Assembly (NCBI GenBank): GCA_903927615.1
Contig: CAIYNU010000081.1
Coordinates: forward strand, 1-64,000
DNA length: 64,000 bases
Reading direction: 5' to 3'
From: an uncultured Rhodospirillales bacterium
GTDB lineage: Bacteria; Pseudomonadota; Alphaproteobacteria; Azospirillales; Azospirillaceae
Shown here: positions 33,760 through 50,036 of the stretch, in pieces
Layout of the letters: each line of letters starts with the position of its first letter
Numbering within the stretch: the stretch's first letter is position 1
Made by a program: the position numbers and the translations under genes
The notes under the pieces: generated by a model
What the model was told of the DNA's origin: nothing
Database searches by the model: none
The model's input: the letters and a program-made list of their open reading frames with translations, nothing else

Positions 33760-33837
33760 CGTCAGTCTCGTCAGTGATCAAAACCCTGGGGGTTTCAGAA
33801 CTGTCGGGCGCCACATCGGCTCGCACCGGTCGGCCCT

Positions 33838-33969
33838 TGGACCTATCATGATATCCGACGGACGGCGACCGCTGGGCTCGCGCCCATGGGCATTCCGCCT
33901 CACGTCGTGGACCGGATACTGAATCCTGTTCAAGGCAGCATCCGCGGTGTTGCCGCTGCCTACAACCAG
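33838..33969 (+). pseudogene. Decayed tyrosine integrase C-terminal fragment
   Basis: 132 bp that align without a gap to 39158-39289 of the intact integrase gene downstream. The reading frame stays open for 44 codons: WTYHDIRRT, then GIPPHVVDRILNPVQGSIRGVAAAYN. The HxxR box is kept, but the second catalytic-site His (NHVQG in the intact copy) has become Pro. Nothing upstream in the fragment encodes the rest of an integrase. It marks a previous insertion by a related element. Confidence 0.85.
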
Positions 33970-35274: not shown

Positions 35275-37245
35275 ATGAGTTTCATGCCGTTTGACCCACT
35301 CGAATTCAAGAACACTAAAGTCAATGACGCAGCCTTGGGAGCTCTCAAGCGCGAGATCGAAAATATTTTGAGTTCGTATGTCGGTTGGTACGATCCTTTT
35401 TGCGAACTTATTCAAAACGCCCTCGATGCTGTTGAGGCAAGGGTTCAGATTGAGAAATCGGCAGGCACGGATTCATCGTATCAGCCTAGAATCGATATTC
35501 GAGTTGATCTTGACAATAATTCATTAACCGTTACTGACAACGGAATTGGGCTGGATAAAGATAAATTCGAGCAATTTCTTGCTCCGAATTTTTCTTTCAA
35601 GACTGGAAATACACGCGGCCACAAGGGAGTTGGGGCAACTTACGTTGCGTATGGATTTAATTATATGCGAATATCGACAAAGGCACCGGGATTTGAGGAG
35701 TCAGGGAGGATAATTGGCGCCCGCGATTGGTTAAAAAGCAATGTTGCCGGTGCCAATCCAAAGGTTGAGCCGGATGACTCTCCTTTGGCGGATGCTACAT
35801 TTACCGAGCATGATCGAGGTGTTTCGATTACGGTTAGGTTTGATAGCCGAACACATCCCAAACGCTTGGATTGGATACAGGCCAACACGGCAGACACTTG
35901 GTCCAAAATATTTTCCATAAAGACCGGATTGGGATCAGTCGTCAAGGATAGTTCTGTTAAGATTACGATAGTAGTTCGAAAAAATGGAAAAGAGACTCGG
36001 AGCGAGAGAATTGGCACGTCCTATTTTTGGCTTCATGAAATGGCATCAAAGAAGGCGACAACTCGTGAAATCGTCAAGATGCAGGATGATTTGTATAAGA
36101 AATATGGATCCGGTAGAAAAATGCCCGATAGATATTCTAATCTTGACTTTGTATACGATACGTGGGGTCCTGATGAACTGAAAGATCTTCTCGGATCGGC
36201 GCTGGATGATGAAGAGCTCTCGGTTATTGCTAACTATAGCCCGTCTATCAGCGTCGAATTCGGTTATACGGCGAAATTATGGACTAAATTTAATGAAGAT
36301 CTGGCAGTACGCTCTGGACAACGCATCCTAACGGGCGGTATTCAGCTTGCGGCTAACAACATGCCACAGGGCGAGACGATACAGGTTCCATTGACTCGCA
36401 GTATTGGTAGACAGAACCAAGTTCACTTTCTTATACATTTTAACAATTATACCCCGGATTTAGGAAGGAAGGGATTTAATCGTGAGTTGAGTGATTTTGC
36501 GAAGAGTGTCGCGCGAAAAATAACTGAAAATTATTTGTCGAAGATTCGCAACAGACTCAAAACGAATACTGGAGTTGCTCCAGATTTGGTAAGGGAGATT
36601 GAAATTGCAGATTGGAAGGCTCAGATGGTGGCGCACGAGAAACAAGAGCCTCTCACTCTACAAAGTCATCACTTTTTTATTCCGATTGAACGCATATCTA
36701 TTACCTCAGTGCCGACGCGTGAGCAGGACGTGATTGCGTTATTTCATCAATTGGTCGCAGGAGGAGTTATTAGGGGCATCAACGTGATGTCTACGAACGA
36801 AAGATTTACCTATGATGGTCTCTTCCGAATTTCATTCGATTTAGAGGCCAAAAAGTACGTTTATGATGCCGAAACAAATCCCCTTGGAGTGCCAATTGAA
36901 TTAGCAAACGGCCTTCATGGGAAAGTCACAGAGCCTCGGGTTCTTGAATATAAGTTTTCACTAGATGGCCTCGTTGAGGACATTGACAGTCAGGACAAGA
37001 ATATCAAGGATATTGACCTTTGTGCTGTCTGGAGTACTGGAGACTTGTATAAGGCGCGTTATGGAATAATTTCACTATTGCCAAGCGAGGATGCTGATCA
37101 ACGTCAATATCATGGCGTCACTCATGTGCTCACAGATTTAGAATCTGGGGCGAAGCTTTGTGATCTCATTGTGCTCAGCGAGCTAATAGAACATTTGAAC
37201 GATTCAGAGGCATCGTCAACGAAACAGCGGGAGAAATACGAGTAG
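35275..37245 (+). CDS. GHKL-ATPase (MORC/Hsp90-like), putative defence protein
   Basis: 656 residues. The Bergerat ATP-binding fold occupies about 25-200: N-box PFCELIQNALDAVE (Glu44, Asn48, Asp51), DNGIGL (88-93) and the lid RGHKGVGATY (114-123). This KGVG form is seen in MORC-like and Hsp90-related prokaryotic ATPases. A transducer-like segment follows (IQVPLTRSIGRQNQVHF), then a C-terminal region of about 200 residues I cannot assign. GC is far below the host's. AAGGA precedes the ATG. It stands alone in a mobile-DNA region; anti-phage activity is inference. Confidence 0.8.
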   Translation: MSFMPFDPLEFKNTKVNDAALGALKREIENILSSYVGWYDPFCELIQNALDAVEARVQIEKSAGTDSSYQPRIDIRVDLDNNSLTVTDNGIGLDKDKFEQFLAPNFSFKTGNTRGHKGVGATYVAYGFNYMRISTKAPGFEESGRIIGARDWLKSNVAGANPKVEPDDSPLADATFTEHDRGVSITVRFDSRTHPKRLDWIQANTADTWSKIFSIKTGLGSVVKDSSVKITIVVRKNGKETRSERIGTSYFWLHEMASKKATTREIVKMQDDLYKKYGSGRKMPDRYSNLDFVYDTWGPDELKDLLGSALDDEELSVIANYSPSISVEFGYTAKLWTKFNEDLAVRSGQRILTGGIQLAANNMPQGETIQVPLTRSIGRQNQVHFLIHFNNYTPDLGRKGFNRELSDFAKSVARKITENYLSKIRNRLKTNTGVAPDLVREIEIADWKAQMVAHEKQEPLTLQSHHFFIPIERISITSVPTREQDVIALFHQLVAGGVIRGINVMSTNERFTYDGLFRISFDLEAKKYVYDAETNPLGVPIELANGLHGKVTEPRVLEYKFSLDGLVEDIDSQDKNIKDIDLCAVWSTGDLYKARYGIISLLPSEDADQRQYHGVTHVLTDLESGAKLCDLIVLSELIEHLNDSEASSTKQREKYE

Positions 37246-37917: not shown

Positions 37918-37962
37918 TGGCGACCCCAGCAGGGCTCGAACCTGCGACCCCGCGCTTAGAAG
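37918..37962. repeat. Left att core (45-bp tRNA-Arg 3' duplicate)
   Basis: 45 bp identical to 49960-50004, which is the 3' half of the tRNA-Arg gene on the minus strand (CCA end through the anticodon stem). The sequence after position 37962 diverges at once from tRNA. It is the duplicated crossover region left by integrase-mediated insertion. Confidence 0.9.
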
Positions 37963-38070
37963 TCGTGTGCTATCAGCTTCATGGCGTTGCACAGCGTATC
38001 CGGTAGCCACACATACCCCTTGAAGATAAACGCATTCTGTATCATTTTGTCGCGTGGTCTTGCCGCGCGC

Positions 38071-38111
38071 GTGGCTACCCGGTGGCTACCGGTGGCTACC
38101 CGGTGGCTACC
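38071..38111 (+). repeat. Left arm repeats GTGGCTACC x4
   Basis: Four exact copies of GTGGCTACC start at 38071, 38082, 38092 and 38103, that is every 10-11 bp, one helical turn. They lie between the att core and the integrase start. Matching repeats occur near the right att site. This is what arm-type integrase or excisionase sites look like. Confidence 0.7.
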
Positions 38112-38158
38112 AGACAAAGGCGGAAGCCACCAGCGGACGGCGGTTTTGGGGGTGTGGG

Positions 38159-39418
38159 ATGCAGGCGAAGATCAGCAAGCGGGTTGTGGACTCTGCGGCA
38201 GCCACTGGCGCCGATCTGTGGGTCTGGGATACCGAACTGAAGGGCTTTGGTCTTCGTGTCCGACCGAATGGGCATAAAGCTTACGTCCTCGAATACCGGG
38301 CAGGGGCGGGGGGCCGGAACGCACAGAAGCGGCGTGTCACCATCGGGCAACATGGCTCGCCGTGGGCGCCCGACACCGCGCGGGACGAAGCGAAGCGGTT
38401 GCTCGGCCTAGTGACGACCGGGGCCGACCCCGCGGCCGAACTCAAGGCAGCGCGGGAGCCGAAGGCAGGAGAGACGGTCAGGGAAGCTGTTGATCTCTTT
38501 CTGGCTCGGTATGGCAGCCGGCTTCGCAGCGTCGATGCGGTGCGCGGCTTATTCGAGCGGGATGTGCTGCCCCGGTGGGGAACCCGGAAAACCGCGGACA
38601 TTGCCAAGCGCGACGTGATCGAACTGATTGACCAGATCGTTGACAGCGGCCGGCCGGTACAGGCGAACCGGATATTCTCCGCAGTGCGCCGCTTTTTCAA
38701 CTGGGCTGTGGAGCGGGATATCATCACGACTTCCCCGTGTGCCGGGGTGAAGGCGCCAACCGCCGAAGAGTCGCGCGATCGGGTTCTTGAGGACGATGAG
38801 TTGCGGCGCGTATGGGCGGCGGCGGCGGAGATGGCTTACCCGTTCGGCCCGTGGGTCCAGCTCCTGGTGCTGACCGCGCAACGGCGCGATGAGGTTGCCG
38901 GGATGCGCTGGCGCGAACTCGACCTTGACGCTGGCCTTTGGGTGATCCCGAAAGAGCGAGCCAAGAACGACAAGGCGCATGAGGTGCCGTTGTCGCCCGG
39001 GGCCGTCGAGATACTCCAGGGGCTCCCGCGGCTCGGCCCCGATGATTTCGTCTTCACCACCACCGGCCGGGCGCCGATCAGTGGCTACAGCAAGGCCAAG
39101 GCGGCACTAGACCGTCGTATCGTCGACGTTGACCCCGAAGGCGAACGGTTGGCGCCGTGGACCTATCACGACATCCGGCGGACGGTGACCACTGGGCTGG
39201 CTCGCATGGGCATACCGCCTCACGTCGTCGATCGCATCCTCAATCATGTTCAGGGCAGCATTCGCGGTGTGGCCGCTGTCTACAACCGGCACGATTACAT
39301 CGAAGAGCGGCGCCGGGCACTCGAAGCCTGGGAGCGGCATGTGCTGGCCGTGATCAAGGGCGGGACGGCTGCCGGCAACGTTGTGAAACTGCCGGTGAAT
39401 GGACGAAAGGCCGGGTGA
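38159..39418 (+). CDS. int: Tyrosine integrase of the tRNA-Arg element
   Basis: 419 residues of the P4/DUF4102 type. The N-terminal arm-binding domain (ATGADLWVWDTELKGFGLRVRPNGHKAYVLEYRAG) is followed by a core-binding SAM-like domain (about 100-185) and the catalytic domain with Arg in LTAQRRDEVAGMRW, HDIRR (His337, Arg340), His363 in ILNHVQG and the likely nucleophile Tyr375 in AAVYNRHDY. The frame is open upstream to 38054, but that part only translates the arm repeats; ATG at 38159 follows a G-rich stretch and gives the normal start. Confidence 0.93.
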   Translation: MQAKISKRVVDSAAATGADLWVWDTELKGFGLRVRPNGHKAYVLEYRAGAGGRNAQKRRVTIGQHGSPWAPDTARDEAKRLLGLVTTGADPAAELKAAREPKAGETVREAVDLFLARYGSRLRSVDAVRGLFERDVLPRWGTRKTADIAKRDVIELIDQIVDSGRPVQANRIFSAVRRFFNWAVERDIITTSPCAGVKAPTAEESRDRVLEDDELRRVWAAAAEMAYPFGPWVQLLVLTAQRRDEVAGMRWRELDLDAGLWVIPKERAKNDKAHEVPLSPGAVEILQGLPRLGPDDFVFTTTGRAPISGYSKAKAALDRRIVDVDPEGERLAPWTYHDIRRTVTTGLARMGIPPHVVDRILNHVQGSIRGVAAVYNRHDYIEERRRALEAWERHVLAVIKGGTAAGNVVKLPVNGRKAG

Positions 39419-39522
39419 CCGGGTACAATCGATCGGTGGGGATAGGCCGGCCAGCCGACAAGCCCGGAACTCCGACCGGGTTTCCCCGCCGAACCCATCG
39501 GAGAGCACCATCGGAGGGTGCT

Positions 39523-40524
39523 GTGAGCAATCCCGTAGATCTGTGCGCGACCCACGCGTCGCAAGATGAGATCATTGCGACCCACTTGGACATGCCTGGC
39601 TATTCGACCCTCAGTGATGAAGAAGCCGCGCAAGCCATCAAAGTAAGTGTTGAAGATGTTCGACGGGTTCGGAATGATCCAAGCATCCTGGCAAATTATA
39701 GGGCATGGCAAGACAATGAGGTTAGAAAATCTGATGACTACTTACACGATGAATTAATGCGAAAGGAAGCCGCAAGACACTTACTTCGTGAAAGTATCGA
39801 TCGTAATATTACGACATGGCTACCGATCTATAAAGCAATTGGCTTAGTTGCTCAGACGGGAATGTCTCTGGATGAAGCATGGGAACAAATCAAGGAATGC
39901 ATCCGTTTGGACGACGTGAATCCAAAATGTAAGATTCCGACAAAGGAAAAGCCATATTCCAAAACCACCGCATTTGATGCCAAATGGATTGATCGCATTG
40001 ACCGCATCGGCAATGCCGGCGATTTTGGCGAAGACTACAGCATTCTGATTGGTACCGGAGTGGTTAATATAAACACAAGCGAATGCGAAGTCGCAACCCC
40101 GGTTCAAGCATTCTTTGTGCGCGATATTGTTGTCCAGGAAAGCGAAATTAAGGCAATCATTGCGCGTGCGGGCAAAGCATCCGGAGATTTTTCTGGCGAG
40201 ACATCCCATGCCGCGGTAGCCCCGACAGTAACAACGAGCATGTCATCGGATGCCGACGAACAGCCAACCGCGAAAAAGAAGCGTGGGGGTGGCCCATCCA
40301 AGACCTATCCGAACGCGAAGCGGCTCATTCGATCGCGGTGCGAGAGAATCACCTACGCAAGGCTCAAGTCGATGAAGCCGGTTGACCGACGCAAGGCCAT
40401 GGAAAGGGACCTTGCCTTGGACAAAAACGGAAATCGCCAACTACCGCAGCGAACGGAATTCGATAGGCTAATCAATGAGTGGCTGGCTGATCAAGAGGCT
40501 GTCGCGGCGGCACGCACCGAGTGA
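39523..40524 (+). CDS. Hypothetical protein of the element
   Basis: 333 residues of no family I recognise. GTG at 39523 is chosen because GGAGG lies about 6 bp upstream. The N terminus has a helical, possibly HTH-like segment (LSDEEAAQAIKVSVEDVRRVRNDP). A long helical middle (RKSDDYLHDELMRKEAARHLLRESIDRN) and a basic, Lys-rich linker (TAKKKRGGGPSKTYPNAKRLI) follow, and the end is again basic and helical. GC is about 50 percent, lower than the host. Its place between int and the iterons suggests DNA binding, in replication or control; this is inference. Confidence 0.7.
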   Translation: MSNPVDLCATHASQDEIIATHLDMPGYSTLSDEEAAQAIKVSVEDVRRVRNDPSILANYRAWQDNEVRKSDDYLHDELMRKEAARHLLRESIDRNITTWLPIYKAIGLVAQTGMSLDEAWEQIKECIRLDDVNPKCKIPTKEKPYSKTTAFDAKWIDRIDRIGNAGDFGEDYSILIGTGVVNINTSECEVATPVQAFFVRDIVVQESEIKAIIARAGKASGDFSGETSHAAVAPTVTTSMSSDADEQPTAKKKRGGGPSKTYPNAKRLIRSRCERITYARLKSMKPVDRRKAMERDLALDKNGNRQLPQRTEFDRLINEWLADQEAVAAARTE

Positions 40525-40536
40525 CCGGCAGCGGGT

Positions 40537-40638
40537 TGTCGGTAACTCGACTGCCTGTCGGTAACTGTCGGTAACTCGACGGAATCTTTCCGCGAAATCA
40601 ACCTGATAGGGACACGGTTGTCGGCAACTGTCGGCAAA
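40537..40638 (+). repeat. Iterons TGTCGGTAAC/TGTCGGCAAC
   Basis: Five copies of a 10-bp unit: TGTCGGTAAC at 40537, 40556 and 40566, TGTCGGCAAC at 40619 and TGTCGGCAAA at 40629. Two pairs are directly abutting. TCGAC follows copies one and three. The array sits in a non-coding gap before the regulator and replication genes, so it is a candidate replication origin or operator. Confidence 0.6.
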
Positions 40639-40733
40639 TCAGGTTGTGCTGTACTAAGCATTTTCTCCGTTACATAAGCTTCGCTGTTACCGCCGCCAAC
40701 TTGATGCGGCGCTGTCAAACAGCGAGGTCAAGT

Positions 40734-40991
40734 ATGCCCAAGATCGCGCGGACGAGGGAGGCGGTATATTACGACCCGCCGGATCGCCCCCAGAGTAACG
40801 AGTACCTCCGCCAGCCCGCCGCAGCGAAACTTCTTGGGTTGTCGGAAAGCTGGCTTGAAAAAGCGAGACTCACCGGCAAGGGGCCGACGTTTTCTCGGCT
40901 TCCGGGCAGCAAAGTTATCGTCTATCGGCGTAGCGACATCGATGCCTGGGTCGCGGCCGGTGTCCGCCAAAGCACGTCGGAGGCCGCGTGA
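40734..40991 (+). CDS. AlpA/MerR-like helix-turn-helix regulator (putative excisionase)
   Basis: 85 residues. SNEYLRQPAAAKLLGLSESWLEKARLTGKGPTFSRLPGSKVIVYRRSDIDAWVAAG is the winged HTH of the AlpA/excisionase group (helix-turn-helix, then the short Y-R-x-x-D-I-D-A-W end). GAGG lies 7 bp before the ATG. In P4-like elements such proteins control int expression or act directly as excisionases. It is followed by a gene overlapping by 1 bp. Confidence 0.83.
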   Translation: MPKIARTREAVYYDPPDRPQSNEYLRQPAAAKLLGLSESWLEKARLTGKGPTFSRLPGSKVIVYRRSDIDAWVAAGVRQSTSEAA

Positions 40992-41338
40992 TGGCCGCCC
41001 TGCCGATCATCTCGCTCGGGCGGGCGGTTGCGGCGGTGGTCGCCGATCTCGACATCCGTCGGCGCTGCCAGTGCCCCGGAGCACGATACGGGCTCTGGTC
41101 CGATACGACCGACCCCTGCGAGCGGGTCGCCCGTTTGCGGTCGCTGCGGACCCTCGTCCGGGTGTTTGCCGGCCCGGCCGGTACGACCGCAGAGGCGGCA
41201 CTTGCAGCCGCCGAGATCGATCCGGCGATGGTCGGAACCGCAGTCGATGCTCTTGACCGCCTGCCGGCCCTGACCCTGCGACGCGTGCTTTCGACCTACG
41301 CTGGAATACACCGGCCGAGTGGGGGGGGCCGGTCATGA
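40991..41338 (+). CDS. Hypothetical protein of the element
   Basis: 115 residues, Ala/Arg-rich, with three Cys near the N terminus region (RRCQCPGARYGLW, then DPCERV). The ATG overlaps the AlpA-like stop (TGATG); GTG at 40988 is an alternative. Its stop overlaps the next small frame. No family recognised; the overlaps on both sides support it as a real member of the operon. Confidence 0.55.
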   Translation: MAALPIISLGRAVAAVVADLDIRRRCQCPGARYGLWSDTTDPCERVARLRSLRTLVRVFAGPAGTTAEAALAAAEIDPAMVGTAVDALDRLPALTLRRVLSTYAGIHRPSGGGRS

Positions 41339-41445
41339 CCCGAGCCGACCTGAAGCTGTCCTTGATCGCCTGGGGATGTTGCGGGGGCTGGGTTCGGCGC
41401 TGGCTCGTGACCGCGATCGTGTCGGGAGCGCTCCGGCATGACTGA
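41335..41445 (+). CDS. Possible 36-residue protein
   Basis: A short frame that starts in the stop of the previous gene (ATGA) and ends 8 bp into the primase gene. The product is MTRADLKLSLIAWGCCGGWV followed by a short basic tail, with a hydrophobic, Gly/Cys-rich middle that might be a membrane helix. The tight overlaps on both sides are the only support. Confidence 0.4.
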   Translation: MTRADLKLSLIAWGCCGGWVRRWLVTAIVSGALRHD

Positions 41446-42433
41446 TGATGAACTCGCGGAACTGCGCCGCCGCCTCACCGACCGCACCGAAACGTTGGCA
41501 GAAGCCTTGTTGGGCAAACCGAACCGCCCCTTGTCCGGGCCGCGCGAAATCAGGTTCGGGCGCAAGGGCGCTATTGCGGTCGAGTTGGCGCCGCCCAAGC
41601 GCGGCCTATGGCATGACCACTCGGCCGACGAAGGTGGCGATCTGCTCGCGCTGATCCAGCGGGAAAACCGCCTCGATTTCCCCGGCGCTTTGGCGTGGGC
41701 TCGAACCTGGCTCGGGGATCCGGAGCGGGTTGCCGTGCCATCGCGTCCGGCGCCCGCCCATGTCCCTGATGAACGGGCATGGGACACCCTGTCGCCCTGG
41801 GGTCGGGACCTATGGGCATCGGCGCAACCTATTTCCGCCGATTGCCCGGCCGGTCGATACCTCACCGGCCGGGGCTGCGCCATCCCCGAGGCGCACTGTG
41901 TGCGCTGGGTACCGTCCCTCAAGTATGGCCCGAGCGGCACGGAGTATCCGGCGCTGCTCTCGCTTGTCACGGACGCGGTTACCGGCGAACCGATCAACCT
42001 GCACCGCACCTGGCTCGCCGCAGATGGCTCCGGCAAAGCGCCGGTTGACCGGCCCCGTCTTCTGCTCAAGGGGCACCGCAAGGCCGGGGGCGCGATCCGA
42101 CTGTCGGCCGATGACGAGGTGACTTTCGGACTCGGCATCGGTGAGGGGCTGGAAACCTGCTTGACCATCGTGGCCAGCGGCTGGTGCCCGGTCTGGTGTG
42201 CAATCGACTCCGGCAATCTCGGATCGCTGCCGGTGCTCAACGGCATCGAAGCCCTGACCGTGTTCGCCGACCACGACTTCCCCAATCCGAAGACCGGCAA
42301 GCGTGCCGGAATCGAGGCCGCGCAGAAGTGCGCCCGCCGCTGGTCTGATGCCGGCCGCGAGGCGCGCGTGATCGTGCCACCGACGGAAGGCCATGACTGC
42401 AATGATTGGCTTCGGAGCGCCGACCATGCCTGA
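41438..42433 (+). CDS. Toprim-domain primase-like replication protein
   Basis: 331 residues. The N-terminal part (WHDHSADEGGDLLALIQREN) resembles the zinc-less primase/helicase N domain of plasmid and phage proteins. The C-terminal half is a Toprim_3 domain: FGLGIGEGLETCLTIVASGW holds the conserved Glu, and LTVFADHD, then GIEAAQKCARRWSDAGREARVIVPP, gives the DxD and following helix. Such proteins prime DNA synthesis. It overlaps the ATPase gene by 8 bp. Confidence 0.86.
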   Translation: MTDDELAELRRRLTDRTETLAEALLGKPNRPLSGPREIRFGRKGAIAVELAPPKRGLWHDHSADEGGDLLALIQRENRLDFPGALAWARTWLGDPERVAVPSRPAPAHVPDERAWDTLSPWGRDLWASAQPISADCPAGRYLTGRGCAIPEAHCVRWVPSLKYGPSGTEYPALLSLVTDAVTGEPINLHRTWLAADGSGKAPVDRPRLLLKGHRKAGGAIRLSADDEVTFGLGIGEGLETCLTIVASGWCPVWCAIDSGNLGSLPVLNGIEALTVFADHDFPNPKTGKRAGIEAAQKCARRWSDAGREARVIVPPTEGHDCNDWLRSADHA

Positions 42434-43652
42434 TGCCCGAGATCAGATCATGGCCGCGGCCGATGCCGCTCCGCGTTGGGCAGCCGGGCCGGAGGGTCGG
42501 GAACCGCCGCCTTCTCACGATGACGAGGCCGCCACTTCGCTGTCGGCGCGCGACAGCCTTACCGACCTCGTTGACCCCACCACCCTGTTCGGCATCGATC
42601 CGCCGCAACGCGAGTATGTCATTGAAGAAATGCTCCCGAAGGGTGCCGTAACGACGTTAATTGGCCCCGGGGGTGCCGGCAAGTCATTGGTGGCGCTACA
42701 GGCGCAAATATCAACGGCAATTGGGGGCGATTTTCTTGGGTTTCGTGTCAAGAAGTGTAAATCATTGGCCTTTTATTGTGAGGATGACGCTCACGAGGTT
42801 CATCGTCGCGCCAAGGCAATCTGCATTCATTATGGGATATGGCTCAAAGATATTGGTCTCGCACGCTGGCAAGGCCGGTTCGGAAAGCAAAATGTCATCG
42901 CCACGTTCCGAGATGGGATGCTTTGCCCCACGGAATTCTTCGATTTCATTCTTGAGGCGATGCGCCATACGGGCGCGGAGTTGTTGATCCTCGATAATAT
43001 TGCTCAATTGTTTGCAGGAAATGAAAATGATCGAAGCATGGTGACGCAATTCGTTAATCGGCTCGGGCAGATTGCGATTGAGTTTGACGCCGCGGTGCTG
43101 TTGCTCGGCCATCCCGGCAAGTCGTCGGTGGGTTTGACCGCCGAATTCAGCGGATCGACCGCCTGGGATGCCGCTGCGAGACTTCGGTGGTTGCTGTCGC
43201 GGCCGGAACAGGAGAAAGATGGTCCCGAGATTGATCCAGACCTGCGGGTACTGACCAAAAAGAAAAGCAACTATTCCAGTATCGGCGACGAAATCATGTT
43301 GCGGTGGGACAACGGCGCTTTCCAGGCCCTGAATACTGCCGGGCCGGATATGGTCGATCGAATTGACCAGAACACCAAAGCGAGTGCCTGCCAGGATGCC
43401 TTTCTTCTTGCGCTTGCCAAGTTGGAAACCGAGGGCCGGAAGGTGACCTCGAAAAGCCGGGCCGGGAACTACGCGCCCAACGAAATGATCCGAATGCCGA
43501 TGATGCAGGCGTGGCGGAAGCGCCAGATCGAAGCCGCGATGCAAGACCTTTTCGATGGCGGCCACATCGTTGAACTGCCCTACGGCTCGCCATCAAGGGG
43601 GTGGACGTACCTTGCCCCAACGTCAGAAAAAGCGACCAATGGGGGAATGTAA
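42426..43652 (+). CDS. RecA-fold ATPase (RepA/DnaB-like helicase)
   Basis: 408 residues. Walker A is LIGPGGAGKSLVALQ (about 80-94), Walker B is LLILDNIAQLF, and the sensor region reads AVLLLGHPGKSS. The layout matches the hexameric RepA helicases of plasmids such as RSF1010 and AAA_25 proteins of phage satellites. GC falls in the central part. With the Toprim gene before it, this forms a two-gene replication module. AlpA, iterons and these two genes together suggest autonomous replication after excision. Confidence 0.87.
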   Translation: MPDARDQIMAAADAAPRWAAGPEGREPPPSHDDEAATSLSARDSLTDLVDPTTLFGIDPPQREYVIEEMLPKGAVTTLIGPGGAGKSLVALQAQISTAIGGDFLGFRVKKCKSLAFYCEDDAHEVHRRAKAICIHYGIWLKDIGLARWQGRFGKQNVIATFRDGMLCPTEFFDFILEAMRHTGAELLILDNIAQLFAGNENDRSMVTQFVNRLGQIAIEFDAAVLLLGHPGKSSVGLTAEFSGSTAWDAAARLRWLLSRPEQEKDGPEIDPDLRVLTKKKSNYSSIGDEIMLRWDNGAFQALNTAGPDMVDRIDQNTKASACQDAFLLALAKLETEGRKVTSKSRAGNYAPNEMIRMPMMQAWRKRQIEAAMQDLFDGGHIVELPYGSPSRGWTYLAPTSEKATNGGM

Positions 43653-43704
43653 TGCTGTATCGCTCAACCTTTAATACTGTGTGTCCGGTTCAGATTTGGG
43701 AGCC

Positions 43705-43769
43705 TACACCGGTTACACCGGTTCCTTGCAGCCCATTGAAAAACAATAATATTTCTACCTACACCGGTT
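43705..43769 (+). repeat. Three TACACCGGTT repeats
   Basis: TACACCGGTT occurs at 43705, 43714 (overlapping by one base) and 43760. The 6-bp core ACCGGT is itself palindromic. They lie in the 200-bp gap between the helicase and the small-gene train; the frame across this gap (from 43652) looks non-coding. A regulator binding site or second set of iterons is likely. Confidence 0.5.
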
Positions 43770-43851
43770 GTGTGTGTCCGTTCCCCCATACCCCCTACGC
43801 TCTGCGGCGCCATGGAGCGCGCCGCGGGCGTCGATGAGAAGGGTGTCGTCC

Positions 43852-44193
43852 ATGAATCGACATCACCGCCGAGCCGCTGCCAGGCAGTCTCGCTTCGCCC
43901 TTCCGGACATCGGATTTGCGCCCGCCGCCCATGTGGTGCTCTCGCACGATGGCCGCAGCCTGTCCGAGGCCATGGCGTCTGGACGGGTGGCCGCGCTCGT
44001 CCCCATCCACTGCGGCAACCTGGCAGCAACCGAACCAACCGCGATGCTTGAGGCAGTCATCGAAGCGGGGGGTGCCATCGTGATGGCGTTCGAGAGTGCC
44101 CGTGACGCGCGCGAATTCCAGTCACGCATGGCCGCTCGAACCTGCCCACCGCCGCCAGTCCCCACACATCGGGCGCCGGAGGCTGTCCAATGA
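43852..44193 (+). CDS. Hypothetical protein of the element
   Basis: 113 residues, Ala-rich. It starts MNRHHRRAAARQSRFALPDIGF and has alternating strands and helices (AHVVLSHDGRSLSEAMASG, EAVIEAGGAIVMAFESARDAREF) and a Pro-rich tail. AAGGG lies about 9 bp before the ATG. The stop overlaps the next ATG (ATGA). No family recognised; it heads a train of small overlapping genes typical of phage-like elements. Confidence 0.6.
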   Translation: MNRHHRRAAARQSRFALPDIGFAPAAHVVLSHDGRSLSEAMASGRVAALVPIHCGNLAATEPTAMLEAVIEAGGAIVMAFESARDAREFQSRMAARTCPPPPVPTHRAPEAVQ

Positions 44194-44354
44194 CCGCTGC
44201 TCTCCGCGCCCGCCTGGAAGCCGACCGCTCCAACCTGCTCAGGACGCCGGCCGACCGGCCCCTCGAATTCGCCTTTGTCAGGATGCTCGCCGACATTCAA
44301 ACCGCAATTGCTGCCGTAGAGGCAGTCGCCATAACCAAGGAGAACTCCCCATGA
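44190..44354 (+). CDS. Small hypothetical protein (54 residues)
   Basis: A helical 54-residue protein, MTAALRARLEADRSNLLRTP at the start. Both start and stop overlap their neighbours by 4 bp (ATGA), and codon use matches them, which supports it. It has no recognisable family. Confidence 0.55.
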   Translation: MTAALRARLEADRSNLLRTPADRPLEFAFVRMLADIQTAIAAVEAVAITKENSP

Positions 44355-44641
44355 TCACAGTCAAATTCCCGCCGGTGCGCGGCAAAAGCGTTGACGACAT
44401 CGCGCCAATCGACAAGCTCGGCCCCGATATGGCGATCCTTTGGCGCGCCAGTGACTTCGCCGTCGATGACCACTTCGTCGAGATGTTCAGGAGTAATATC
44501 ATTCGTCGCCTCACAGATTTCGGATGGTCCCTTGAGATGGCGAAGGAATGGCTCTGTTTTATCGAATATCGTGCAATCTGCGTCGGCCATGATCTTGAGG
44601 CCGCCGAAGGCGACGCCGCGCAGACCTGGGGGCGGGCGTGA
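44351..44641 (+). CDS. Hypothetical protein of the element
   Basis: 96 residues. It starts MITVKFPPVRGKSVDDIAPI and has a helix rich in Phe/Arg (DDHFVEMFRSNIIRRLTDFGWSLEMAKEWL). AAGGAG lies about 8 bp before the ATG. It overlaps both neighbours. Unknown function. Confidence 0.6.
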   Translation: MITVKFPPVRGKSVDDIAPIDKLGPDMAILWRASDFAVDDHFVEMFRSNIIRRLTDFGWSLEMAKEWLCFIEYRAICVGHDLEAAEGDAAQTWGRA

Positions 44642-45045
44642 TGGCGATTAATCTGCATTGCCCCGCCCGCACCAAGGCCGAGCCATGGCGCTGCGAATGC
44701 CCGTCTCATGCTCTGCGGTCGGATAGCCCAAAGGGGCCGGCTCTCGACCTGTGCCGGCAGTTGGTCGACCTCGGTATCGAGGATGGTCCGGCGACCGTCT
44801 ATCGGGACGGCAAGCCGGCGCTGCTGATCGGCGCCATCCACCAAGCTGCCAGACTGACCGTTGCTGAGGGGCCCGCAACGCGGTTCGTGAAGTGGCAACC
44901 CCACCCCGGTTCCTGGGATAGCGATTCCCGCGAGAGCGGTTCGGCGCCCATGCGTCAAACCAAGGTGGCCGCTACCCTGGTAGCCCCCAACCCTTTCGTC
45001 GATCCTGGCGCGTCACCGCACCCAGTCACGAGGATCGCAGCATGA
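44641..45045 (+). CDS. Hypothetical protein of the element
   Basis: 134 residues. The first 40 hold Cys and His (INLHCPARTKAEPWRCECPSHALR), possibly a zinc site. The middle (LVDLGIEDGPATVYRDGKPALLIGAIHQAARLTVAEG) looks like a small folded domain and the tail is disordered. The start overlaps the previous stop (TGATG) and the stop overlaps the next ATG (ATGA). No family recognised. Confidence 0.55.
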   Translation: MAINLHCPARTKAEPWRCECPSHALRSDSPKGPALDLCRQLVDLGIEDGPATVYRDGKPALLIGAIHQAARLTVAEGPATRFVKWQPHPGSWDSDSRESGSAPMRQTKVAATLVAPNPFVDPGASPHPVTRIAA

Positions 45046-45218
45046 GCGCCCGGCTGGTCGTGGTCGATGTGCCGGGGACGCCTGTCTTGGTTCAGGTGTA
45101 CCGCGGCGCCGAGTGCATCTCGGTCCCGGTGTCCCCGCTCCGGGCGCTGCGGCTCGCCAGTGACCTGATCGAAGCGGCCGAAGCCCGGCTGAAGGCTGAA
45201 GGGGAGATCAATGCCTGA
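45042..45218 (+). CDS. Small hypothetical protein (58 residues)
   Basis: 58 residues, starting MSARLVVVDVPGTPVLVQVY, an all-beta opening followed by a helix (ALRLASDLIEAAEARLKAEG). It starts in the previous stop and ends 8 bp into the next gene. GC and third-position bias agree with coding. Confidence 0.55.
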   Translation: MSARLVVVDVPGTPVLVQVYRGAECISVPVSPLRALRLASDLIEAAEARLKAEGEINA

Positions 45219-45654
45219 CGACCGCAACAACGGCACGAAAACGGGTAGAGATGCCCGCGGCAGGTTCGCTCCCGGTAACACCGGCCGCCCGCCCGGAGCG
45301 CGCCACGCCGCAACGCTGGCCGCGGAAGCCTTGCTTGACGGTGAAGCCGAGGCATTGACCCGGAAGGCCGTCGAGATGGCGCTAGAGGGCGATCCCGTGG
45401 CCCTGCGGCTTTGCATGGAGCGCGTGCTGTCACCGAGACGAGACCGGCCTGTGCGGTTCGCCCTGCCCGCGATGGCAACCGTAGCCGACGCGCCGAAAGC
45501 CTTGGCAGCCATTACCGCCGCTGTCGCTGACGGCAGTCTGACAGCAAGTGAAGCCGGGGACCTGGCTGGCTTGGTCGAAAAGTTTGTCAAAGCAATCGAA
45601 GTCACCGACCACGAAGCCCGTATCAAAGCGATCGAAGAAAGGAACACAACATGA
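45211..45654 (+). CDS. DUF5681-like phage protein
   Basis: 147 residues. GRDARGRFAPGNTGRPPGARHAATLAAEALLDGEAEALTRKAVEMALEGD is the N-terminal segment of DUF5681 proteins, common in alphaproteobacterial prophages. Some members lie next to terminase genes, so a packaging-related role has been suspected, but none is proven and no large terminase is present here. The stop overlaps the next ATG (ATGA). Confidence 0.72.
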   Translation: MPDDRNNGTKTGRDARGRFAPGNTGRPPGARHAATLAAEALLDGEAEALTRKAVEMALEGDPVALRLCMERVLSPRRDRPVRFALPAMATVADAPKALAAITAAVADGSLTASEAGDLAGLVEKFVKAIEVTDHEARIKAIEERNTT

Positions 45655-45869
45655 GCAATATCTCGCGTCGATTGGCGAAGCTGGAAAAGACCGCCGCACC
45701 CAAGGGCCGGCTGATCACAATCTCCGTTCCCTTCGGGCAGGAGAACGACAATTTCGATCACTTGCTGGTGCCCCTGAACGTCACCGCGGCCGACAGCGTG
45801 GTTGCCGTGATCAACTATGCCCCGGATGCCGAGCCGCCGGCAGTGTCGGTCGCGCCGATGGCGGCTTGA
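45651..45869 (+). CDS. Small hypothetical protein after DUF5681
   Basis: 72 residues with a basic helical start (MSNISRRLAKLEKTAAPKGR) and a beta-rich middle. The start overlaps the DUF5681 stop by 4 bp. Short proteins of this kind often follow DUF5681 in prophages. It ends about 100 bp before the deleted IS630 copy. Confidence 0.6.
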   Translation: MSNISRRLAKLEKTAAPKGRLITISVPFGQENDNFDHLLVPLNVTAADSVVAVINYAPDAEPPAVSVAPMAA

Positions 45870-45966
45870 TCGGGGTGCAACAGTCTGTTGAAATGGCGAA
45901 GGGTGTCGATAGGACCGACACCCCTTCGTCTCTTCGAACGTCGGTTACTCGGCGGAATCGACGCTA

Positions 45967-46371
45967 GTGTTCTGACCGCAACGAACGATTCCCCGAGGGA
46001 CTCGTTCGTGCGATTCTGGGGGGCATGAGAACCGGCGTTACGGTTCAGCTTTCGCCTGAGGATCGGGTTCGGCTGAACAAACTGGTCGCGGACCGAAACA
46101 CCCCGAAGAAGCATGCCTGGCGTGCCGAGATCGTCCTGCTGACGGCGGATGGCGTTGGTACGATGGAGATCACGAGGAAACGCATCCGACGCGGCGTCTT
46201 CAAGAGTGTCACCGACCTGGAGGTGGCCATCTACCAATATCTTGCCGAACACAACGACCACCCCAAACCATTCATTTGGACGGCCACCACCAAGGATATT
46301 CTCGAAAGGGTTGCGCGGGCGCGCGTCGCCCTGAAGGCTGCCATCGGTACCAAGTGACAGAGTCGGAACAC
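45967..46371 (+). mobile_element. Deleted IS630-family element (405 bp)
   Basis: The unit is flanked by TA on both sides (45965-45966 and 46372-46373), the IS630/Tc1 target. Its ends are inverted: GTGTTCTGAC on the left and GTCGGAACAC on the right, differing at one position. Inside is a fused transposase remnant. With termini intact but the catalytic domain gone, it is a non-autonomous, MITE-like derivative. Confidence 0.72.
46025..46357 (+). pseudogene. IS630 transposase, internal deletion
   Basis: 110 codons. The first 50 (VQLSPEDRVRLNKLVADRNTPKKHAWRAEIVLLTADG) are the HTH end of an IS630 transposase, and the last 50 (SVTDLEVAIYQYLAEHNDHPKPFIWTATTKDILERV) are its C terminus. The DDE catalytic centre, which would lie between, is missing, yet the two parts are joined in frame. 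Confidence 0.8.
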
Positions 46372-46373
46372 TA

Positions 46374-46635
46374 GGGCCGGTAGGTTGGCCGCTGGTGAGT
46401 TTTAGGGCGATCGCCGCAGCAAAGGCCGGCGGAAATCAGGACTCACCTGCGACTCGCTGGCGGGCTTCGGCGGCTATCGAGGGTGGGGCGAGCGCTAAAC
46501 GAAGCGCCTAATCAAGCGGATACAAAGCAACACAGGGGAAAATGACGGCGACGTGCGTGATCTAGGTCTTTTCTGTGGGCCCTTCATGAACGATGATGCG
46601 GCAGCCCCATCTATCGGTTGGGGGTAGGAGGAACC
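46374..46635. other. Gap before the PIN gene pair
   Basis: About 260 bp with no gene. It should carry the promoter of the PIN pair; no convincing -35/-10 pair is seen. Confidence 0.4.
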
Positions 46636-47382
46636 GTGGACACGCTGACGTTCAGGATCGGCGGCTTTCGACCGGACACCATCCCGATGGCACGTCTGGC
46701 TCAATACATGGCCGAACTGGCTGCTCTTCTCGGCTATGAGAAGAGCGTCCATTTTGTGCGCATGGATGAGGGCAGCGTCGATCTGGTTCATCGGGTTGAT
46801 GTGGAAGACCAGCCCAAGGTTGGCGCCCGGCTGGACGCCCTTTGCCGGGGGGAGGCGGACGGCGACGCTATCAAGGCGTATCGCAAGCTAGACGAAATGC
46901 TTGCCAACGATAACACCATCGGAGAGTTGACTACGGATCACAAGACTATCGTCATCCAGTTTCCTGGAAGAGACCGGCCCAAGCCGGTTCACTACGGAGC
47001 ATTTACGCAATTCGGCAGCCTGGATGGTGTTCCTGTGAAGGTGGGCGGCCTCGCTGAATTGGTGACTATTCATCTCCAGGAAGTCGGTCCCACCGGGACG
47101 GTGCATCACTGCTACGCCAGTAGAGATATTGCCCGCGCCATTGCTGGGCATTTGTTCGACACCCCCGTTCGGGTGCATGGAAATGGTCGTTGGCAGCGTG
47201 AGGCAAGTAGGGCCTGGAAGCTGCATCGCTTCGTCATCAGCGAATTTGAGGTATTGGACGACAGCCCTCTTGAAACCGTTGTTGCTCAATTGCGGGCGAT
47301 CACCGGCAGCGAATGGCGAACAGTGGAGCGCCCTCTAGTGTTTCTACGTGACCTTCGCGGAAACGGGGATGGTGTTCACTGA
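46636..47382 (+). CDS. Uncharacterised partner of PIN nuclease
   Basis: 248 residues. GTG at 46636 is chosen because AGGAGG lies 4 bp upstream. The N-terminal part (VDTLTFRIGGFRPDTIPMARLAQYMAELAALLGYEKSVHFVRMDEGSVDL) is a well-formed alpha/beta module, and the C-terminal half is strand-rich. No nuclease, kinase or HTH motif is seen. The stop overlaps the PIN-domain ATG by 1 bp, so the two proteins are probably made together. Antitoxin, sensor or targeting subunit are all possible. Confidence 0.7.
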   Translation: MDTLTFRIGGFRPDTIPMARLAQYMAELAALLGYEKSVHFVRMDEGSVDLVHRVDVEDQPKVGARLDALCRGEADGDAIKAYRKLDEMLANDNTIGELTTDHKTIVIQFPGRDRPKPVHYGAFTQFGSLDGVPVKVGGLAELVTIHLQEVGPTGTVHHCYASRDIARAIAGHLFDTPVRVHGNGRWQREASRAWKLHRFVISEFEVLDDSPLETVVAQLRAITGSEWRTVERPLVFLRDLRGNGDGVH

Positions 47383-47918
47383 TGGTGATCTTCGACGCCA
47401 ATTTTTTGCTGTTGCTTCTCGATCCCGAAGTGGACGTTCCTCCTGACCCGTCAACAGGACTTCCACTTACGTGGGCCAAAGAGCGCGTTGCGCAGCTTAT
47501 TGCCGGTCTGTCCAAGCAGCGAGAAACGATTGGCATTCCAACCCCTGTGATTTCCGAAGTGCTCGTTTACGCTGGCGAAGCCGGGCCTCGTTATCTGGGC
47601 GTCATCTGCAATAGCAACCATTTCCGCATTCTGCCGTTCGACCTTCGAGCCGCTATCGAAGCCGCAGCGAAGACCAAAGAGGCTATTGTCGCTGGGGACA
47701 AGCGCGAAGGAAGCGCTGCGCCATGGCAAAAAGTCAAAATCGACAGGCAGATTATTGCCATATCTCTCGTTGAGAACGTTTCAGCAATTTACACGGACGA
47801 TCAAGGCCTTGTTCGTCTGGCAAAGAATACGGGTCTGGCCGCCGTTAGTAGTTGGGAATTGCCATTGCCTCCTGAAGAGGCTCAGAGAGACCTATTCCTT
47901 CAACCAGAAGGCGCCTGA
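47382..47918 (+). CDS. PIN-domain nuclease
   Basis: 178 residues with the PIN metal site: Asp5 in MVIFDANFLL, Glu59 in VISEVLVY, Asp121 in KIDRQIIAI and Asp139/140 in IYTDDQGL. The length is that of VapC-like RNases, but no VapB or Phd-like partner adjoins; instead a 248-residue unknown protein is translated ahead of it. As cargo of a mobile element it may be an addiction or anti-phage nuclease; RNA target unknown. Confidence 0.85.
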   Translation: MVIFDANFLLLLLDPEVDVPPDPSTGLPLTWAKERVAQLIAGLSKQRETIGIPTPVISEVLVYAGEAGPRYLGVICNSNHFRILPFDLRAAIEAAAKTKEAIVAGDKREGSAAPWQKVKIDRQIIAISLVENVSAIYTDDQGLVRLAKNTGLAAVSSWELPLPPEEAQRDLFLQPEGA

Positions 47919-47930
47919 ACACTTTTGTTC

Positions 47931-48098
47931 TTATATTTGACCTGCCGCGTCATATTTTGGCCCGCCGTTGAAACCATCGGCCAGTTCCTCACTTCCCCGA
48001 GGCTGCCGCTTCTGCCCCACCGCTTCACCCACTTTGCGCTGGCCGTCGAACGTCACCGCCATGACGAGCTTCTGCGGGCCGGTCTCGTCAACCAGCAT
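47931..48098 (-). CDS. Possible 55-residue protein
   Basis: A short frame MLVDETGPQKLVMAVTFDGQ followed by a polar tail, with host-like codon use. It follows, in a different frame, the Cys-rich small protein on the same strand. There is no clear ribosome-binding site, and it may be the frameshifted end of its neighbour. Confidence 0.35.
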   Translation of the reverse strand: MLVDETGPQKLVMAVTFDGQRKVGEAVGQKRQPRGSEELADGFNGGPKYDAAGQI

Positions 48099-48115
48099 GG
48101 CGGCAGCCGCGGGCT

Positions 48116-48322
48116 TTATTGGGCAGGAACCACGTCGGTATCTTTCCTCAACCTCACCCCCGGCCCGCCGCCGTTCTCGGCGACGCTATCCGACGTTCCG
48201 GCCGAACGGATGGGAGCAGCCTCCTTACGCTGCGGCTCGGACACCACCCGCCCGCAACTGGCGCAGACCCCGTTTTCTGGGATGCAGAAATTTAGGCACC
48301 CGTCCTCGTCCAGTTTGATCAT
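48116..48322 (-). CDS. Small Cys-containing protein downstream of XRE regulator
   Basis: 68 residues. MIKLDEDGCLNFCIPENGVCASCGRVV carries four Cys, with CxxC, that could bind zinc. The tail VAENGGGPGVRLRKD is nearly the same as the tail of the upstream XRE protein (IAENGDGPGVRLRKE), so a short duplication has occurred. The ATG overlaps the XRE stop by 4 bp. Confidence 0.55.
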   Translation of the reverse strand: MIKLDEDGCLNFCIPENGVCASCGRVVSEPQRKEAAPIRSAGTSDSVAENGGGPGVRLRKDTDVVPAQ

Positions 48323-48552
48323 GCGTCTCCCTCCTTGCGCAGCCGCACGCCGGGGCCATCCCCATTCTCAGCAATGAAGATCACGCCGGCCGACTCCAGG
48401 GCGGTGCGGATGGCGTCAACGGTTCTCTCGTACAATGCTTCACCCCGCTCAAGGCGTGTAACGGTACCGGGAGCGACATTCGCCAGGGCGGCAAGTTCCC
48501 TGACCCCAAGGCCAAGGCCCGCTCGGGCCATCTTGCATTGCTCAGGCGTCAT
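48319..48552 (-). CDS. XRE-family repressor of the element
   Basis: 77 residues. TPEQCKMARAGLGLGVRELAALANVAPGTVTRLERGEALYERTVDAIRTALE is a lambda-Cro/C1-type HTH. The ATG at 48552 is preferred over 48564, because the latter lies inside a perfect inverted repeat that is probably its operator. It is the only regulator read against the main gene direction and the natural candidate for master repressor of the element. Confidence 0.84.
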   Translation of the reverse strand: MTPEQCKMARAGLGLGVRELAALANVAPGTVTRLERGEALYERTVDAIRTALESAGVIFIAENGDGPGVRLRKEGDA

Positions 48553-48563
48553 TGTTGATACCA

Positions 48564-48607
48564 TGTGTCAAAGTTTTGGTTGACGTACCGAGGCGGTCTT
48601 TGACACA
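48564..48607. promoter_or_regulatory. Inverted repeat between XRE gene and divergent gene
   Basis: TGTGTCAAAG at 48564-48573 and its exact reverse complement CTTTGACACA at 48598-48607, separated by 24 bp. TTGACA-like -35 boxes occur in both arms. It lies in the divergent gap of the XRE regulator and the gene at 48702, so it is the likely repressor operator. Confidence 0.55.
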
Positions 48608-48701
48608 GTGTATCTACCTTGGCGCAAACGCGCAAGCGGCCGGACCGGATGCAGCAACACCCCGCCCGGCCTAACCATCACCCGAACAGGAGCTTCGGAT
48701 C

Positions 48702-49502
48702 ATGGCTGATTCCGAGAATACCCGAACTGTGCCCGCGGGCACCACCGCCCCGGCCGGTGCCGACACCAACGACATCACCCTCAATACCGACGCCGACTTC
48801 GCCGCGGCCGAGACGGAATTGCTCCGGCTGCTGGCCGTCGGCATTCCGAAGGGAACCCCCGATGACGAGTGGCACGTTTACCAGGAAGCATGGTGGCGTC
48901 TCCACGAGGCCCTGATCACGGCCGAGCCGCGCACGGCGTTTCAGGCGGCCGTCATCCTGCGGCGGGCGACATGCCGGGATTGTGGCATCCCCTGCGGGTC
49001 GAACGACATCACCCTCCCGGCCATCGAGAGGGTGGCGGAGTTCCTGGCAACACCCCCGGCCGACATCGGCAGCGTCACAGGCCGTGCCTGCCAGTTGGCC
49101 GATGACCTGAATGACGTGAAACGGGGCGTGACGGCCATTGTGGACTTCGCTGCCACCTCCGATGACGGCGACGCCCCTTCCATTGCCTGGATCGCTCGCC
49201 GCCTCGAAGAGAACGTGGCCGCCGCAATCGAAACGCTTGATGGGATCCGCACCACGTTGGCGGCGCCCGCGATGGCTACCAACCTTGCCCGCCTGGCAGA
49301 GACCGAGGCGACCGTTGCCCGGTTCAAGGCCGCAGCCGAAGGGCTGGCGCCCGATCATGCCATCCATGTGCAGACGCAGGATGTCATCGACGGCGCCGTC
49401 GCGGACGCCGTGTTCGTGCTGGCCCGCGCGCTTCGGTGGGGGCAGTTTGAACCCATGGTGGCCGGCCTTCGTCGGGCCGGCATCGTCGGTGGGGAGGCAT
49501 GA
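48702..49502 (+). CDS. Hypothetical protein of the element
   Basis: 266 residues, acidic N terminus (MADSENTRTVPAGTT) and mostly helical. There are Cys pairs in ATCRDCGIPCG (about residue 90). Long amphipathic helices follow (IARRLEENVAAAIETLDGIRTTL). GGAG lies 9 bp before the ATG. The stop overlaps the next ATG. No family recognised. It is read divergently from the XRE repressor, so it is probably an early, regulated gene. Confidence 0.6.
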   Translation: MADSENTRTVPAGTTAPAGADTNDITLNTDADFAAAETELLRLLAVGIPKGTPDDEWHVYQEAWWRLHEALITAEPRTAFQAAVILRRATCRDCGIPCGSNDITLPAIERVAEFLATPPADIGSVTGRACQLADDLNDVKRGVTAIVDFAATSDDGDAPSIAWIARRLEENVAAAIETLDGIRTTLAAPAMATNLARLAETEATVARFKAAAEGLAPDHAIHVQTQDVIDGAVADAVFVLARALRWGQFEPMVAGLRRAGIVGGEA

Positions 49503-49729
49503 CCATGACCTACCTGCGAGAGAACCCCCTCGACACCAGCGCCACGCCGGACCCGAAGATGCGCGCAGACCGGATGTTGCATGCCCTGGAGCACGGCATC
49601 GACGTTGCCCGGCGGCTGGCGGATTCCGGCATCGACGGTGACGGAGCGGAAGACCGGGAAACGCTCTTGCATCGCCTGATCTGGACGCTTGATCGCGTGT
49701 CGGAAGCCGAGCCGCCACCGACACCCTAA
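49499..49729 (+). CDS. Small hypothetical protein at right end of element
   Basis: 76 residues, helical, starting MTMTYLRENPLDTSATPDPK. The ATG overlaps the previous stop by 4 bp (49505 is an alternative). It is the last gene of the element and is followed by a good intrinsic terminator. Confidence 0.6.
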   Translation: MTMTYLRENPLDTSATPDPKMRADRMLHALEHGIDVARRLADSGIDGDGAEDRETLLHRLIWTLDRVSEAEPPPTP

Positions 49730-49762
49730 CCCGCCCCACCGTGGGGCAGTGCCCACTACCAG

Positions 49763-49792
49763 CCCCGCCCGGGAAACCGCGGCGGGGTTTTT
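49763..49792 (+). terminator. Intrinsic terminator at right end of element
   Basis: CCCCGCC (49763-49769), an 11-nt loop that can itself pair (CGG/CCG), GGCGGGG (49781-49787), then TTTTT. It closes the last operon of the element. Confidence 0.8.
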
Positions 49793-49892
49793 GGTGTCGG
49801 CGCGGTGGGTGCGATCGGGCGAGTTTCGGGGCGCGGCTGGCAGTCGCGGTCAGAAGCTCGGAGAAGGCCCGCGAGAGGCGACTTTCGTCCGC

Positions 49893-49930
49893 GTGGCCAC
49901 CCGGTGGCTACCGGTGACGTGGTGGCTACT
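49893..49930 (+). repeat. Right arm repeats GTGGCTACC-like
   Basis: GTGGCCACC at 49893, GTGGCTACC at 49904, a degenerate GTGACGTGG at 49914 and GTGGCTACT at 49922. They match the array near the left end (38071-38111), lie in the same orientation, and end 29 bp before the right att core. Confidence 0.65.
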
Positions 49931-49959
49931 GGCCCGGTGTTACTAACCCATTGAAAAGA

Positions 49960-50004
49960 TGGCGACCCCAGCAGGGCTCGAACCTGCGACCCCGCGCTTA
50001 GAAG
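49960..50004. repeat. Right att core inside tRNA-Arg
   Basis: The second copy of the 45-bp direct repeat found at 37918-37962. It runs from the CCA end to the anticodon arm of the tRNA on the minus strand. Confidence 0.9.
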
Positions 50005-50036
50005 GCGCGTGCTCTATCCAGCTGAGCTATGGGGCC
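49960..50036 (-). tRNA. tRNA-Arg (anticodon UCU)
   Basis: Read on the minus strand it is a full 77-nt cloverleaf: acceptor GGCCCCA/TGGGGTC, D arm GCTC/GAGC, anticodon stem CGCGC/GCGCG with loop CTTCTAA (anticodon TCT), T arm GCAGG-TTCGAGC-CCTGC, and an encoded CCA. Its 3' 45 bp (49960-50004) form the right att core of the 12-kb element, so the integration preserved a functional tRNA gene on this side. Confidence 0.95.

Follow-up and report, generated by a model that had tools for sequence, protein, structure and literature searches.

A satellite-like integrative element at a tRNA-Arg(UCU) gene of an uncultured alphaproteobacterium

The window analysed here, a 64-kb stretch of DNA from an uncultured bacterium of the Azospirillaceae, holds a block of genes inserted at a tRNA-Arg(UCU) gene. 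The block includes an integrase and replication genes and has no recognisable virion genes, which raises the question of what kind of mobile element it is and how it would spread. Its limits are set by two attachment sites:

37918-37971: attL, a copy of the 3' part of tRNA-Arg(UCU) (52/54 identity to 49960-50013, 45 bp exact)
49960-50036, minus strand: intact tRNA-Arg(UCU), the integration target, with attR at 49960-50013 (ARAGORN, Rfam)

The element extends from 37918 to 50013 (12.1 kb) between direct repeats of 54 bp at 96% identity. Their 45-bp exact core is the longest exact repeat of the 64-kb window, against a maximum of 19 in 30 Markov-shuffled 64-kb windows, and has no third copy elsewhere in the window. 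ARAGORN and Rfam agree on a complete tRNA-Arg with anticodon TCT, so the right repeat copy is the 3' part of this gene. The original prediction of 45-bp direct repeats and an intact tRNA-Arg is borne out by the repeat alignment, the shuffles and both tRNA searches; its left end at 37918 stands, whereas its right end, placed at 50004, moves to 50013. The block thus has what identifies a tRNA-integrated mobile element: an integrase and direct repeats, one of which restores the tRNA 3' end. Four same-genus genomes have the tRNA and, in the stretches examined, no second repeat copy beside it; synteny left of the tRNA differs between them and the window, so that no exact empty site can be drawn. 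Left of attL lie a scrap of a second integrase, 85% identical (33827-33967), and a gene with 44% G+C for a 656-aa HSP90/HATPase-fold protein (35275-37245), probably left behind by a previous tandem occupant that carried defence-like genes.

The left part of the element is given over mainly to integration and replication:

38068-38115, plus strand: left integrase arm-type repeats, GTGGCTACCCG, period 11/21
38159-39418, plus strand: tyrosine integrase, in a frame open from 38054
39435-39504, plus strand: int-alpA-type RNA (Rfam RF02996), full length, directly after int
39523-40524, plus strand: orphan 333-aa accessory protein, 50% G+C
40537-40637, plus strand: five iteron-like TGTCGGYAA repeats, three in one group and two in another
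40734-40991, plus strand: AlpA-type HTH_17 regulator/excisionase (Pfam 7e-7, phrog_66 3e-7)
40988-41338, plus strand: 116-aa protein that marks the element family (the 40988 protein)
41438-42433, plus strand: DUF7146-Toprim_3 primase-like protein (Pfam 4e-25 and 7e-14)
42393-43652, plus strand: AAA_25 RecA-fold helicase/Rep-like protein (Pfam 2e-32, phrog_906 5e-33)

Pfam and PHROGs confirm the integrase, AlpA-like, primase-like and RecA-fold genes read from the sequence at the outset; int, alpA and a primase/replication module are all present, in the core order int, alpA, Toprim, AAA. The integrase matches Phage_integrase (9e-18) and Arm-DNA-bind_3 (4e-13) in Pfam and phrog_1 (7e-65) in PHROGs, and more likely starts at the ATG at 38159 than at 38054. 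The arm-type motif GTGGCTACCCG recurs at the right end of the element and at both ends of a sister element (C23) in the same genome. As in other int-alpA RNA-associated elements (RF02996), the RNA follows int directly and precedes alpA; unlike theirs, it falls below the curated threshold (31 bits against a gathering score of 35.8, E 0.0035) and is separated from alpA by an accessory gene. It can be aligned with above-threshold copies from related loci, in an alignment that shows a few compensated pairs but an unfavourable overall covariation term. The TGTCGGYAA cluster is a candidate origin or operator, with modest AT-richness between its two groups of repeats. The Toprim protein is 65-67% identical to its counterpart in another genome, G037, and found no matches when viral contigs were scanned with it alone. 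The 39523 protein had been proposed as part of a search set for the family, a role that it cannot fill: it has no family match in Pfam or PHROGs and no homologue in any of 81 other family genomes. It is orphan cargo and was ruled out as a hallmark; the 40988 protein and the type of integrase are suitable markers instead.

The remainder of the element carries small genes, cargo and a repressor:

43768-45218, plus strand: cluster of small overlapping ORFs (43768, 44190, 44345, 44638, 45042)
45211-45654, plus strand: DUF5681 protein, helical model (Pfam 1e-6)
45651-45869, plus strand: small "RLxxLE" protein directly after DUF5681
45959-46379: IS630-type insertion sequence remnant with imperfect inverted ends (by inspection)
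46618-47382, plus strand: cargo gene 1, phrog_19868 (PHROGs 5e-43)
47382-47918, plus strand: cargo gene 2, PIN-domain nuclease, phrog_21691 (PHROGs 1e-29; Pfam PIN 0.003, weak)
48116-48322, minus strand: small ORF echoing the repressor C-terminal motif (by inspection)
48319-48564, minus strand: HTH repressor family (weak HTH match)
48702-49502, plus strand: protein divergent from the repressor
49499-49729, plus strand: small overlapping ORF
49751-49932, plus strand: right end, non-coding, with arm-type repeats, common to sister element C23

The ORFs of the small-gene cluster have no confident family match in Pfam or PHROGs. DUF5681 was considered as a small terminase, and its AlphaFold model (pLDDT 73, pTM 0.40) gave no significant PDB or BFVD match. 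The DUF5681 gene also sits 3' of primase/AAA genes in two other loci (L155 and L152), and its neighbours across other genomes are mixed, some being ParB/methylase-like; genes similar to RLxxLE follow it in L152, L111 and L155. Behind another DUF5681 gene, in L133 (about 8234-9242) and also in L126, there is a CRISPR-like short-repeat array, whose translation in L133 reads GSIPACTGEP/VYPRLHGGA. The apparent IS630-type transposase remnant noted by inspection at 46025-46357 has no library match; together with the possible duplicated repressor tail it suggests some decay. The cargo pair adjoins a CI repressor in Pseudomonas phage Ostro, and PADLOC matched no defence system among the cargo genes. 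Accessory nuclease genes, as first described, reduce to the PIN gene, with its weak Pfam match, the others not being nuclease-like. The expected repressor was recovered both by its weak HTH match and by homologues in related elements, which are 41-72% identical; DNA similarity to locus L047 spans this gene and the start of the 48702 gene.

Searches of the element with Pfam and PHROGs, and with NCBIfam for the proteins scanned, found no large terminase, portal, capsid or tail gene and no relaxase, in agreement with the initial reading. Neither the large terminase, portal and capsid of a prophage nor the relaxase of an ICE or IME is thus recognisable, and the largest unassigned gene product of the 12.1 kb is 333 aa. 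No TerS homologue was recognised in the window copy and no cos/pac site identified in it. The host draft genome yielded no complete helper prophage: there is one substantial TerL match, on C1, and a marginal one on C100. The C1 gene (12615-13853, in L132) is apparently an orphan, whose neighbourhood includes a TPR/glycosyltransferase gene and groEL but showed no capsid gene; same-genus genomes have similar matches. A helper prophage within the element's own genome was rejected on these grounds.

The host genome does hold sister elements. A complete 3.4-kb element at tRNA-Thr(CGU) (C23, L044 6770-10215), bounded by 70-bp repeats, consists only of an integrase 55% identical to that of the window, HicAB, an AlpA scrap and small genes; its ends carry the same arm repeats, and about 180 bp of its right end are near-identical to that of the window element. 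At tRNA-Ala there is a relic (C80, L043 1052-1793) that retains HicB, AlpA and the 40988 protein; an internal deletion has joined the last in frame to a C-terminal portion of AAA, and the frame continues to the tRNA. Finally, a right-end scrap lies at tRNA-Thr(UGU) (C11). Because of these three, the window element is not a chance unit.

The same holds outside this genome. Of 80 other Azospirillaceae genomes, 7 have homologues of the 40988 marker by profile search, and IMG/VR holds further ones; in five of the seven genomes a related integrase lies 4.6-15 kb from the marker (binomial p about 2e-13). Five marker loci are bounded by direct repeats, with lengths of 10.7-17.2 kb:

L149: direct repeats of 39 bp, 10.7 kb, TerS phrog_2538, Abi-alpha-like cargo
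L148: 69-bp repeats at the same kind of site as L149, 14.2 kb, TerS phrog_2538
L150: tRNA-Thr, 98-bp repeats, 12.4 kb
L103: tRNA-Thr, 89-bp repeats, 16.7 kb including an IS66-type insertion (by inspection)
L136 (G037): tRNA-Cys, 53-bp exact repeats, 17.2 kb, TerS phrog_2538

Among the genomes compared, all of them drafts, a PHROG-2 scan found no large terminase near any of the five, while in G003, G035 and G046 it did detect one, at 2-9 kb from other Toprim genes. Since PHROG-2 misses some terminase types, the absence of TerL in the relatives leans also on their having no unassigned large frames. TerS without a nearby TerL occurs in four related loci, as phrog_2538 in L136, L148 and L149 and as a homologue in L151. 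The G037 locus was rejected as a full prophage, being the repeat-bounded L136 element without large terminase. Genes for a transglycosylase, an internal virion protein or both are present in L136 (8796-14380), L103 (9045-10055) and L160 (7725-13007), islands in which no capsid or large terminase is recognisable.

Gene order and cargo vary around a common plan. The order Int, RNA, accessory gene, iterons, AlpA, Toprim is common to the window element and L040, a Geminicoccaceae MAG contig with an integrase (44%), Toprim (52%), int-alpA RNA, accessory gene, iterons and AlpA, where arm-type repeats occur in two places 7.4 kb apart. In L155, from IMG/VR, the order is Toprim, AAA, 40988 protein, DUF5681 and RLxxLE gene. 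L148 (3872-8794) and L150 (11585-16513), which differ in backbone, integrase and site, share one cargo protein, a helicase/methylase-like (type ISP-like) product of 1640 aa. Cargo is exchangeable across the family, including this ISP-type restriction-like protein, an Abi-alpha-like protein, DUF2971 and the PIN pair.

Of the known kinds of element, Gram-negative PICIs come closest; they carry int, alpA and pri-rep in about 15 kb without structural genes (PMC6092414). Like these islands (e.g., EcCICFT073, PMC6092414), the window element and its relatives have int at one end, AlpA, replication genes with iterons nearby, and cargo, within about 10-17 kb devoid of structural genes, and several relatives have TerS without TerL. 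They differ in that the window element has separate Toprim and AAA proteins where PICIs have one Pri-Rep, has the 116-aa marker, DUF5681 and an HTH repressor, and is alphaproteobacterial. A small terminase or packaging-redirecting gene is present in many PICIs and in four of the related loci, whereas none was recognised in the window copy; and the PICI origin has two iteron sets around an AT-rich region, compared with groups of 3 and 2 and modest AT-richness here. Next come the P4-like satellites, which share a tyrosine integrase in a tRNA gene, an AlpA/Vis-type protein, primase-helicase replication and the lack of structural genes; but their genes differ throughout, and Psu, Delta, Sid and the long alpha protein were not recognised by PHROGs or Pfam. 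Within the family, L136 has the same order of AlpA, 40988 protein, Toprim (65%) and AAA and a minus-strand repressor near its right end with cargo adjoining, but its integrase is only 22% identical and it has TerS, a transglycosylase and an internal virion protein. We class the element as satellite-like rather than as a PICI, since PICIs are defined in part by phage-dependent induction and by packaging in helper particles.

On this evidence we take the element to be complete, with genes for integration and replication, and to belong to an alphaproteobacterial family; it is probably a phage satellite whose life cycle resembles that of PICIs, with satellite-type transfer. The satellite-like plan originally predicted stands in its tRNA integration, replication genes, lack of recognisable virion genes and recurrence as a unit; no TerS was recognised in the window copy and no complete helper phage found. 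A more specific proposal, plausible yet short of probable, is a distinct and undescribed satellite lineage of Alphaproteobacteria defined by a GTGGCNAC-arm-site integrase, int-alpA RNA, an AlpA-40988-Toprim/AAA core and a swappable defence slot, with mini-derivatives, which keep the ends and integrase only, parasitising larger copies.

Two other explanations are each unlikely. The element could be a decayed tRNA-Arg prophage that kept int, early replication and lysogeny control and lost packaging, head, tail and lysis genes, leaving an IS630 scar. Its early module and repressor/cargo pair do resemble prophage regions, the IS remnant is located where late genes would be expected, and L136 has internal virion and transglycosylase genes. 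The ends and core genes of the window element are nevertheless intact and, as the original prediction had anticipated in setting a recurring unit against a degraded prophage, the core recurs in other species as repeat-bounded units of 10.7-17.2 kb; independent identical decay is improbable because the five share both similar sizes and the absence of TerL. It is equally doubtful that the element is an unpackaged self-replicating one, moved by a conjugative helper through an oriT that escaped notice, or by natural uptake. Such a mode would fit the lack of a recognised TerS or packaging gene in the window copy, the frequency of Toprim relatives on conjugative plasmids, and the C23 sister, whose 3.4 kb with only int and HicAB show that mobilisation or persistence is possible with the integration system alone. 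Against it, no relaxase gene was found, and the TerS of four related loci and the phage-shared repressor/cargo genes point to phage-linked transfer.

As a satellite, then, the element may be pictured as follows. Its anatomy shows that the integrase inserts it at the 3' end of tRNA-Arg(UCU), restoring the tRNA; the integrase presumably uses the arm-type repeats at both ends. Judging from gene families and layout, the HTH repressor would keep it silent. Upon induction AlpA would drive excision and expression, and Toprim and AAA would replicate the circle from the iterons upstream of alpA, as suggested by the same families and layout and by the PICI description (PMC6092414). Since it has no recognisable capsid or large terminase, it would spread in helper-phage particles, as the TerS of its relatives suggests, none being recognisable in the window copy. 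The swappable cargo would probably guard the element and its host from other phages.

In the literature searched, which took in few subscription papers, no satellites in Alphaproteobacteria were found, and the family is provisionally, and apparently, undescribed. Enterobacteria, Vibrio, Gram-positives and a few marine groups account for most of the phage satellites described. An alphaproteobacterial family with a small marker, clear ends and swappable cargo offers a search handle for satellites of soil- and plant-associated bacteria, and would help to trace where the anti-phage genes of satellites travel.
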